Positions 61,458 to 64,000 of a stretch of DNA of 64,000 bases are shown piece after piece. Source of the stretch: Kosakonia quasisacchari. GTDB taxonomy: Bacteria > Pseudomonadota > Gammaproteobacteria > Enterobacterales > Enterobacteriaceae. The translations under genes and the position numbers were made by a program. The stretch lies in NCBI RefSeq assembly GCF_004331415.1, contig NZ_SJOP01000001.1:310001-374000 (forward strand). Reading direction: 5' to 3'. The notes below the pieces were generated by a model. The model did not search any database. It saw nothing but the letters and a program-made list of their open reading frames with translations, and was not told where the DNA came from. Each line of letters opens with the position of its first letter. Position 1 is the first letter of the stretch.

Positions 61458-63479
61458 ATGAGTAAACCGTTCAAACTGAATTCCGCTTTTCGTCCTTCCG
61501 GCGATCAGCCTGAAGCTATCCGCCGCCTCAAGGAAGGTCTGGAAGACGGCCTTGCGCACCAGACGCTGCTCGGGGTGACGGGTTCAGGGAAGACATTCAC
61601 CGTTGCTAATGTGATTGCCGATCTCCAGCGCCCAACAATGGTGCTGGCGCCGAATAAAACGCTGGCCGCGCAGCTGTATGGTGAAATGAAAGAGTTCTTC
61701 CCGGATAACGCGGTGGAGTATTTCGTCTCTTACTACGATTACTACCAGCCGGAAGCGTATGTCCCAAGTTCCGACACCTTTATCGAAAAAGATGCCTCGG
61801 TGAATGAACATATTGAGCAGATGCGTCTGTCAGCAACGAAGGCGTTACTGGAGCGTCGCGATGTGATTGTGGTGGCATCCGTCTCTGCCATCTACGGTCT
61901 GGGCGATCCGGACCTCTACCTGAAAATGATGCTGCACCTGACTAAGGGCATGATCATCGATCAGCGCGCGATCCTGCGCCGCCTGACGGAGCTGCAATAT
62001 ACCCGCAACGATCAGGCGTTCCAGCGCGGTACTTTCCGTGTGCGTGGCGAAGTTATCGATGTGTTCCCGGCGGAATCTGACGATCTGGCGCTGCGTATCG
62101 AATTATTCGATGAAGAAGTTGAACGGCTGTCGCTATTCGATCCGCTGACCGGTCATATTGAATCGGGCATCCAGCGTTTCACCATCTACCCGAAAACGCA
62201 CTACGTGACGCCACGCGAGCGTATCGTGCAGGCGATGGAAGAGATCAAAGTTGAGCTGGCTGAACGCCGTAAGTCGCTACTGGCCAATAATAAACTGCTG
62301 GAAGAGCAGCGGCTCAGCCAGCGTACTCAGTTCGACCTGGAGATGATGAACGAGCTGGGCTACTGCTCGGGGATTGAAAACTACTCGCGCTATCTTTCCG
62401 GTCGTGGGCCGGGCGAGCCGCCGCCGACGCTGTTCGACTACTTGCCTGCTGATGGTCTGCTGGTGATCGACGAATCACACGTTACCATTCCGCAGATTGG
62501 CGGGATGTATCGCGGCGACCGCGCGCGTAAAGAGACGCTGGTGGAATATGGTTTCCGCCTGCCGTCGGCGCTGGATAACCGGCCGTTAAAATTTGAAGAG
62601 TTTGAAGCGCTGGCACCGCAGTCGATTTATGTTTCGGCGACGCCAGGTAATTACGAGCTGGAGAAATCAGGCAGCGAAGTGATTGATCAAGTGGTGCGCC
62701 CGACTGGCCTGCTCGATCCGGTGATTGAAGTGCGCCCGGTGGCGACTCAGGTGGACGATCTGCTTTCTGAAATTCGCCTGCGCGCCGCGATTAATGAACG
62801 TGTTTTGGTCACGACGCTGACCAAACGCATGGCGGAAGATCTTACGGAATATCTGGAAGAGCATGGCGAGCGGGTACGTTATCTGCACTCGGATATCGAC
62901 ACCGTTGAACGTATGGAGATTATCCGCGATTTGCGCCTTGGCGAGTTCGACGTGCTGGTCGGCATCAACTTGCTTCGTGAGGGGCTGGATATGCCGGAAG
63001 TGTCGCTGGTGGCGATTCTGGATGCCGACAAAGAGGGGTTCCTGCGTTCCGAGCGTTCGCTTATCCAGACCATTGGCCGCGCCGCACGTAACATTAACGG
63101 TAAAGCCATTCTTTATGGCGACAGGATCACGCCGTCAATGGCGAAAGCGATTGGCGAAACCGAGCGCCGTCGTGAGAAACAGCAGCAATATAACGAAGAG
63201 CACGGTATTACGCCGCAAGGTCTGAACAAGAAAGTGGTGGATATTCTTGCGCTTGGCGAAGGGCTGGCGAAGACGCGCGCGAAAGGGCGTGGCAAAGCGC
63301 GCACCCCTGCTCAGGTGGAAGCTGCTGAACTGGCGCTCACGCCGAAAGCGCTGCAGCAGAAAATCCACGAACTGGAAGGCCAGATGATGCAACATGCGCA
63401 GAACCTGGAGTTTGAAGAGGCGGCGAAAGTGCGCGACCAACTGCACCAGCTGCGCGAGCTATTTATTGCCGCATCGTAA
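61458..63479 (+). CDS. uvrB: Excinuclease ABC subunit B
   Basis: UvrB verifies DNA damage after loading by UvrA and recruits UvrC for incision. The 673-residue protein equals E. coli in length. It has Walker [14 protein letters not shown] near residue 38, the damage-probing beta-hairpin region [12 protein letters not shown] near 92, helicase motif [11 protein letters not shown], motif [16 protein letters not shown], and a C-terminal UVR coiled coil ([17 protein letters not shown]). SOS induction is indicated by the upstream LexA box. Confidence 0.98.
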
Positions 63480-63514
63480 TCTCTTCAGGTAATTTGATCG
63501 CACAAAATAACAAA

Positions 63515-63540
63515 AAAGAGAGCCGGTTAGGGCTCTCTTA
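63515..63540 (+). terminator. Hairpin after uvrB
   Basis: AAGAGAGCC, loop GGTTA and GGGCTCTCTT form a stem with an A tract upstream and only a short T stretch after. It could end transcription in both directions. Its right edge touches the PmrA-box-like repeat. Confidence 0.65.
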
Positions 63541-63553
63541 ATGTTGGCTTAAC
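63537..63553 (+). promoter_or_regulatory. PmrA-box-like direct repeat
   Basis: CTTAAT-GTTGG-CTTAAC matches the PmrA (BasR) box pattern of two YTTAAK-like half sites spaced by five bases, with one mismatch in the last base. It lies 45 bases before the 30-codon gene that follows. Confidence 0.65.
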
Positions 63554-63597
63554 CTACGCCTGACACACTGCCCACCGGTATTCTGGAGGGCAATCTG

Positions 63598-63690
63598 ATG
63601 CAGCAATTTAAGGTTCGTGAATTTTTTGCCGTCGCTTTCGCGCTGGCGTTAGTCATTGGGTTTGCCCATCTTTGGGTGCTGACTTATTGA
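63598..63690 (+). CDS. pmrR: PmrR-like 30-residue membrane peptide
   Basis: The ATG follows GGAGGG by seven bases and encodes MQQFKVREFFAVAFALALVI followed by GFAHLWVLTY. It has a short basic start, one membrane helix and the ending W-x2-TY, very like Salmonella and E. coli PmrR (which ends in IWFATY). PmrR is a PmrA-induced peptide that inhibits LpxT, the lipid A phosphotransferase, favouring aminoarabinose or phosphoethanolamine modification. Support comes from the upstream PmrA-like box and from the convergent basS one base downstream. The sequence identity is limited, so the name is a strong inference. Confidence 0.72.
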   Translation: MQQFKVREFFAVAFALALVIGFAHLWVLTY

Positions 63691-63691
63691 T

Positions 63692-64000
63692 TTATACCTG
63701 GCGAGCAGCCGGGAGAAATTTAACCCACGCCCGCACGCCAGACTGTGTCAGCCGATTGTGTAAAAAGAACTGCGCATCATGCAGTTGCGCGATACGCGAC
63801 ACAATGCTTAATCCCAGACCTGCGCCGCCATAGCGGCTGTCCATGCGTACGAAGGCTTTACTGAGCTCTCCGCTGCGGCTTTCATCAATGCCTGGTCCTT
63901 CATCTTCTACCGCAAGTACCGGTGTGGCAGCGTTTTCGATACGCACCGTAATCGCCGATCCTGCCGGGCTATAGCGGTGCGCATTTTCCACCAGATTTCT
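63692..64000 (-). CDS. basS: Sensor histidine kinase BasS (PmrB), 3' part
   Basis: Only the last 102 codons are in the window. They hold the N box ([14 protein letters not shown]), the G1 box ([12 protein letters not shown]), the F-type stretch [13 protein letters not shown] and the G2 box [12 protein letters not shown] of the HATPase_c domain, and they resemble E. coli BasS closely up to the variable tail LPAARQV. BasS senses Fe3+, Al3+ and acid and activates BasR to modify lipid A. It is convergent with the pmrR-like gene. In E. coli K-12 this locus lies near 93 minutes, not beside uvrB. Confidence 0.9.

Follow-up and report, generated by a model that had tools for sequence, protein, structure and literature searches.

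We found an unannotated gene for a membrane peptide of 30 amino acids at the end of a 64-kb stretch of Kosakonia quasisacchari DNA (the window), next to basS (also known as pmrB), and we argue that it is the pmrR of Kosakonia. Our whole explanation is that BasR drives this gene, that the peptide inhibits LpxT, and that the 1-position of lipid A is thereby left free for EptA. We consider this explanation to be very probable. The gene, its PmrA box, the register of its promoter, its conservation, its homology, and the presence of basS, basR, eptA (with a box of its own), and lpxT in the same genome are established by the results below.

The open reading frame is on the plus strand, with an ATG at 63598 and a stop codon that ends at 63690, and it encodes MQQFKVREFFAVAFALALVIGFAHLWVLTY. 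The basS stop codon starts at 63692 on the minus strand; the two genes are convergent, with a single base between them. The peptide has one hydrophobic segment (residues 10-28, with a mean Kyte-Doolittle value of 2.38), and its location in the membrane is a prediction. The Shine-Dalgarno sequence GGAGGG (63585..63590) and a PmrA (BasR) box, CTTAAT-GTTGG-CTTAAC (63537..63553), can both be read from the sequence of the plus strand. The core of the box, with GTT and with 1 mismatch allowed, occurs 1 time in the window (0.02 occurrences are expected), and CTTAATN5CTTAAC occurs twice genome-wide, once on each strand. A -10-like hexamer, CACACT (63564..63569, plus strand), lies 10 nt past the box. 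We did not find a sigma-70 consensus promoter at 63300-63900, and the PmrA box would serve in place of the -35 element. Elsewhere in this genome, a PmrA-box-like sequence (TTTAAGGTTCACTTAAG, at L195:1908-1924 on the minus strand) lies upstream of a gene for undecaprenyl-diphosphate phosphatase (NF008813, 339.8 bits). Loose PmrA-box-like matches number 89 genome-wide, as compared to 79 in a reversed control.

On the upstream side, the co-directional neighbor is uvrB (61458..63479, plus strand), from which read-through RNA could arise; on its strand, we found nothing like a terminator at 63300-63900. The intergenic region does contain a hairpin (63516..63539, minus strand) with a strong T-tract in the direction of basS. 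This hairpin, whose base reaches into the PmrA box, resembles a terminator for basS, not for uvrB. If it is the terminator of basS, then basS RNA would cross all of pmrR in the antisense direction. On the downstream side, only the 3' end of basS (63692..64000, minus strand) is in the window. This neighbor matches the PmrB equivalog of NCBIfam with 552 bits, as against a cut-off of 314. Extending the contig past the edge of the window, which the preliminary description had proposed as a check, reveals basR (PmrA, 386 bits; cut-off 330) and eptA (EptA, 971 bits; cut-off 660), both in the same direction as basS, and eptA has its own PmrA box, CTTAAGGTTGTCTTAAA. Among the best 80 of 256 matches (from which records of the same genome may be excluded), the closest relatives of BasS are from Kosakonia, with K. 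pseudosacchari first at 97%. The coordinates agree with the preliminary description, which had reported a 30-codon frame with a ribosome-binding site, one helix, and CTTAAT-N5-CTTAAC in front, ending 1 base from a convergent basS/pmrB.

The frame at 63598-63690 is a real gene. It is kept in all 15 genomes of the genus Kosakonia, and none of these have an internal stop in it, while stops interrupt each of the five alternative frames in 12 to 15 of them. Across the same genomes, pN/pS is 0.25 when summed over pairs (pS is 0.44 and pN is 0.11), and the variable columns are split 12/10/23 over the three codon positions. The open frame in 15/15 genomes and the pN/pS of 0.25 lead us to reject a chance frame. 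We also rejected a second copy of pmrR in this genome, as profile A1 gives one match at E <= 0.01 and A8 gives none. Two of the findings that the preliminary description had named as speaking against its reading were a lack of conservation among relatives and a true pmrR elsewhere; instead, the gene is conserved across the genus, and these profiles found no other copy.

Synteny with the pmrR of E. coli, a profile-profile match, the register of the box and the -10 element, conservation, and the failure to find another copy all support the identification of this gene as a diverged ortholog of PmrR, as the preliminary description had suggested. In E. coli MG1655, pmrR (b4703) is annotated at the same place and in the same orientation beside basS, but it adjoins proP. 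When we compared 27 peptides from loci of the uvrB type to a disjoint set of 14 peptides from proP loci (E. coli, Salmonella, Citrobacter, etc.), the probability was 96.4 (E = 1.3e-9, over 28 columns), and five other basS-linked peptides, from loci in Dryocola, Erwinia, and Pantoea, matched the 27-peptide profile with a probability of 95.9; these values should be read with the caveat that 30-residue peptides with a single helix easily look alike. The register is the same as in E. coli, and in 63 of the 67 leaders that we aligned, a -10-like hexamer lies 10 nt past the box (T34 is present in 67, A32 in 66, and A30 in 64). The PmrR of E. coli and Salmonella (family NF033224) also shares with our peptide its size, its one helix, an ending of the form F-x3-W-x3-Y, and a genome that contains both lpxT and eptA. 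On the other hand, the direct identity to E. coli PmrR is just 31%, and in E. coli, pmrR overlaps basS by 25-26 bases (given as 25 in PMC8004244).

The gene is also missed by the NCBIfam model for PmrR. NF033224, whose cut-off is 30 bits, gives 74 bits for E. coli PmrR and matches all 14 of the proP-locus rows, whereas it does not match the peptide from the window. Against the 27 rows of the uvrB-locus type, eight match at E <= 1, and the best of these (3.7e-4) has 20.3 bits. When ten uvrB-locus-type peptides were scanned singly, five matched, at 16.2 to 20.3 bits, all below the cut-off; those of K. pneumoniae and K. oxytoca did not match. So none of the peptides of this type that we scored reach the cut-off, including those of these two species. 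There is also no Pfam family for the peptide from the window. We treat the miss as a limit of a model that fits the E. coli clade and not as the lack of a trait that defines PmrR. The preliminary description said that the gene would be easily missed, and for naming based on NCBIfam, this is the case.

What would this peptide do? Induction of pmrR, binding to LpxT, and feedback on BasS would carry over by analogy from Salmonella and E. coli. As reported in PMC8129183, removing only the PmrA box from the pmrR promoter made E. coli WD101 susceptible to polymyxin, and also deleting lpxT restored resistance. In populations of E. coli B that were selected with iron, pmrR is reported to be up together with eptA and the arn genes (PMC13405929). 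By analogy, once BasS/BasR (PmrB/PmrA) is active, BasR would bind the box at 63537-63553 and transcription would begin from the CACACT element. The 30-residue peptide would enter the inner membrane and inhibit LpxT, and the 1-position of lipid A would stay free for EptA, which is encoded in the same islet (eptA-basR-basS-pmrR). PmrR shifts lipid A between phosphorylation by LpxT and decoration by EptA or ArnT, and this sets how the cell behaves towards polymyxin and bile salts.

The genome from which the window comes encodes LpxT (72% identical to that of E. coli). More broadly, we searched 49 genomes (50 loci were given; L121 was left out), and 48 of them have a strong match to lpxT. The exception is a metagenome-assembled genome (L143), which may be incomplete. 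We therefore reject the idea that pmrR and lpxT are lost together. These counts also bear on whether BasR controls a membrane peptide with a target other than LpxT, such as BasS itself, EptA, or another enzyme. We think that this is improbable, given that lpxT is present in 40/40 genomes with a basS-linked pmrR and that the PmrR of E. coli and Salmonella is reported to work via LpxT (PMC8129183, PMC4651636, PMC4244539). What speaks for another target is that lpxT is kept in 8/9 genomes without a basS-linked pmrR and that only M1, F22, and W26 are invariant in the 27-row profile of the uvrB-locus type. The first of these counts, which shows that lpxT is not invariably accompanied by pmrR, also weighs against our own explanation.

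The same DNA is filed in Rfam as an enterobacterial small RNA, STnc630 (RF02052), whose single model of 166 positions covers the box, the leader hairpin, and the pmrR reading frame. Of six loci, three score above the gathering score of 55 bits (E. coli at 181.8, S. arizonae at 175.0, and C. sedlakii at 127.4) and three score below it (K. pneumoniae, K. pseudosacchari, and Erwinia); the window has 45.2 bits, which is also below. In ribosome profiling of EHEC, the coverage of STnc630 was 2.45, as compared to a limit for translation of 0.355, and its Shine-Dalgarno sequence was given as aacggagga (PMC5331693). This is the Shine-Dalgarno sequence of E. coli pmrR, although the name pmrR does not appear in the main text of that article. 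So we take the STnc630 "sRNA" to be the promoter and the mRNA of pmrR, which is translated. If so, then the profiling result belongs to a known peptide, and the E. coli copy doubles as an Rfam sRNA. That the conserved element is instead a non-coding RNA with an incidental reading frame seems very improbable to us, even though one Rfam model spans all three parts with the scores just given, because that model begins upstream of the box and hence is partly promoter, because the coverage in EHEC exceeds the limit for translation and comes with the Shine-Dalgarno sequence of E. coli pmrR, and because of the pN/pS and the third-position bias within the genus.

Published data from E. coli BL21 may also bear on pmrR. 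PMC8004244 describes plasmids with pmrB and varying amounts of downstream DNA: 86 bp gave no colistin resistance, 103 bp gave a MIC of 4, and 126 bp gave a MIC of 16. The authors credit the pmrB mRNA, which was about 315-fold lower with 86 bp than with 126 bp. Yet it was their construct with only the open reading frame that showed the highest level of pmrB mRNA, and this construct was susceptible; they saw a misfit between the plasmid result and the known feedback by PmrR. In MG1655, the pmrR box is at +126 to +110 from the basS stop, which, given the 10-nt spacing, puts the -10 element at around +99 to +94. If their numbering takes the base that follows the stop codon as +1 and if BL21 is the same as MG1655 at this locus, then the construct that ends at +86 lacks the promoter, the one at +103 has the -10 element without the box, and the one at +126 ends exactly at the box. 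The data fit a need for pmrR to be expressed from the plasmid; a remaining difficulty is that, on this reading, the host's own pmrR would not suffice.

To see how widespread this arrangement is, consider the best 80 of 256 basS loci, a sample that leans to close relatives. A reading frame that scores more than 8 bits against the profile adjoins the basS stop in 71 of these 80, and every one of the 71 comes with a PmrA box matching at 13-15 of 15 positions. The profile scores are weak for four of the 71 (L163 at 10.0 bits, L177 at 15.7, L194 at 15.8, and L164 at 17.1). The other nine of the best 80 have neither the frame nor the box: they are from two Superficieibacter, a Pluralibacter metagenome-assembled genome, Pseudescherichia vulneris, Escherichia sp. 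ESNIH1, three Atlantibacter, and one genome labelled Citrobacter freundii. Among 60 further basS loci, which overlap in organism with the 80, ten have the frame, and the box reaches 13 of 15 or more in nine of them and 11 in one; in the 50 without the frame, the best box score is at most 11. The eptA boxes match at 13-15 of 15 positions in all 78 loci that have eptA on that strand, including the nine without pmrR. From these counts, it appears that the box and the pmrR frame are gained or lost jointly and that eptA keeps its box regardless. Across the 66 locus rows of alignment A3, the neighbor of pmrR is uvrB in 44, proP in 16, and neither in 6. At one locus (L283; G087 C15:82822-82954), there is a second pmrR-like copy with a box, at a distance of about 6.4 kb from the other copy; uvrB and a weak match to basS are close by. 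The second copy has lost the conserved W, and it may reflect a tandem duplication of the islet.

The leader of pmrR contains an inverted repeat, TGCCCaCCGG-TATT-CTGGaGGGCA (63569..63592, plus strand), that couples the end of the -10 element with the Shine-Dalgarno sequence. We aligned the leader from the window with 66 of 68 distinct leaders, for 67 rows in all (L123 was left out as a near-copy of L122, and L194 because its start was misplaced). The nine stem pairs are standard in 90.9% of cells, as compared to 45-55% if they are slid by 1-3 columns. The covariation score of the stem is 0.357, as compared to 0.165 (sd 0.012) in shuffles, and 70 cells are changed on both sides, as compared to 29 in shuffles. 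The number of pairs with a change on both sides and the number of further pair types were not beyond shuffles, as 101 and 57 of 500 shuffles, respectively, reached the value. The pair 35-56 is seen as C-G, A-U, G-C, G-U, and U-G.

Relative to single-letter shuffles, which were the controls for stems and z-scores alike, the longest stem onto the ribosome site averages 7.8 for pmrR versus 4.3 (significant in 35/67), 5.1 versus 4.2 for eptA (10/67), and 4.2 versus 4.3 for 49 E. coli genes (0/49). Folding of the leader is beyond shuffles (z < -2) in 64/67 cases for pmrR, in 25/55 for a family of crcB-linked relatives that we describe below, and in 9/29 for eptA. (There were 75 distinct eptA leaders; 67 entered the stem analysis, with eight excluded because their start had been called too early, and the z-scores were computed on 29.) Some eptA leaders in Kluyvera and Klebsiella (L153, L158, and L127) have, between their -10 region and their start codon, an inverted repeat, CATAGCG..CGCTATG; it is weaker and less general than that of pmrR.

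Why would a promoter lie inside such a hairpin? From the position of the -10 element, transcription would start at about 63576, or about 7 nt past the end of that element at 63569. This point comes after the outer 5' arm but falls within the inner 5' arm. Both arms would then be complete only in RNA that enters from upstream, so the repeat could shut the read-through RNA and yet leave the PmrA-driven RNA open. Judging from this anatomy, the hairpin may keep the ribosome site closed in RNA that enters from uvrB. In 44 loci, the box begins a median of 72.5 nt past the uvrB stop. In four species of Kosakonia, the box itself contains the stop codon of uvrB, which leaves no space for a terminator between them. 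Across the 67 leaders, the predicted mean openness of the Shine-Dalgarno sequence is 0.06 in the long RNA, 0.18 if the region of the 5' arm is shuffled, and 0.35 in the short RNA. The long RNA has the lower value in 61/67 leaders, but the openness goes from below 0.3 (long) to above 0.5 (short) in only 11/67, and for the leader in the window, the predictions are alike (0.25 for the long RNA and 0.26 for the short).

Alternatively, the inverted repeat might be selected on the antisense strand, as a structure at the 3' end of the basS mRNA. The RNA of basS probably does cross the repeat: a simple scan of the basS strand detected nothing like a terminator ahead of the pmrR start in 71/71 loci (and no site at all in 58 of the 71). 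Also, of the two hairpins in the window, the antisense one is stabler (-16.3 versus -14.5). Still, this idea seems unlikely, as the sense hairpin is stabler in 21 of 24 genus-like groups (which we assembled manually on the basis of record titles and similarity, for both this count and the next). Wobble states in the core fit a G.U pair in the sense RNA 28 times and in the antisense RNA 11 times, in counts that are biased by the fixed letters of the Shine-Dalgarno sequence. Another idea is that the PmrA-driven mRNA starts further upstream and contains the whole hairpin, as a switch that some signal opens. We found no mapped start site for pmrR in the articles that we read, which leaves room for such a start, but the -10-like hexamer is at the same distance from the box in nearly all of the rows (63/67). 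From this distance, the start would come after the outer 5' arm, and we doubt that the switch exists.

There may be relatives of pmrR in a different home. A model of the box plus the hairpin (R1) has matches in 84/392 genomes of the family. Some of these are away from basS and lead into a one-helix peptide of 30-31 amino acids that ends like FIKVYLFA. A profile of eight such peptides matches in 61/392 genomes; one match (G138) is the basS-linked pmrR itself, and the other 60 are all behind crcB, on the crcB strand, and unannotated. These 60 loci have a box-like site, which matches at 13 or more of 15 positions in 53 of them and at 12 in 7. The one-helix peptides linked to crcB (L286-L315 and L316-L345) are about 28-33 amino acids long. 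The first eight had a best E of 0.016 against NCBIfam and Pfam, and in an Rfam search of seven crcB loci, only the nearby cspA and fluoride elements matched. We also searched the literature for crcB with a PmrA box, or with pmrR, and found nothing.

The peptides behind crcB appear from profile comparisons (97.0 and 96.8) to be related to PmrR. With a broader profile, built from 27 peptides linked to crcB, we obtained matches in 14 of 50 genomes (49 via their basS loci, plus our own). Ten of the matches are basS-linked pmrR, including that of E. coli, and each is the sole match at E <= 0.01 in its genome. The other four are behind crcB, in three Atlantibacter and the genome labelled C. freundii, all of which lack a basS-linked pmrR. 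All 15 of the crcB-type genomes whose basS flanks are among the 60 further loci above are without a basS-linked pmrR. Of the crcB-type genomes that we searched for lpxT, the three Atlantibacter carry it. Five of the nine pmrR-less genomes have neither a basS-linked pmrR nor a crcB-linked peptide. The crcB-linked relatives are candidates for PmrR in lineages that seemed to be without it.

If the hairpin covers the ribosome site in RNA from uvrB, proP, or crcB, then inhibition of LpxT would be strictly bound to BasR, as we propose. Our broader suggestion is that a pmrR with its promoter in a hairpin ties the inhibition of LpxT to BasR and that, with several homes across the family (it would travel with the eptA-basRS islets, or sit behind crcB if basS has no pmrR linked to it), this brake on LpxT is far wider than annotated. 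We offer this tentatively, as having somewhat less than an even chance of being correct. The identity of STnc630, the repeat in the leader, and the relatives behind crcB are additions to the preliminary description.

How do these findings compare to known systems? A 2024 study described pmrAB at three loci, as islets that were acquired separately (PMC11004495). The eptA-basRS islet is common to that description and ours, and the content of its locus 2 (pmrCAB) fits the uvrB place, so we infer that the two are the same; neither pmrR nor uvrB occurs by name in the main text of that article. As for the hairpin, the fold is known, because the Rfam structure of STnc630 already includes it. Our literature searches did not find it described as a hairpin that spans both a promoter and the Shine-Dalgarno sequence. 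The closest parallels are from phage T4, where the promoters of gene e and the I-TevI gene are reported to form the 5' strand of a hairpin; in RNA that is read through from upstream, this hairpin hides the ribosome site (PMC3014915, PMC2988022). With a start that we place from the -10 element, the promoter of pmrR would likewise be part of the 5' side of a stem that covers the ribosome site. But the T4 promoters are phage late promoters, while that of pmrR is a chromosomal promoter for BasR, and the function of its hairpin is our proposal. If the proposal is true, then the pmrR leader would be a case of T4-style insulation in a bacterial chromosome.
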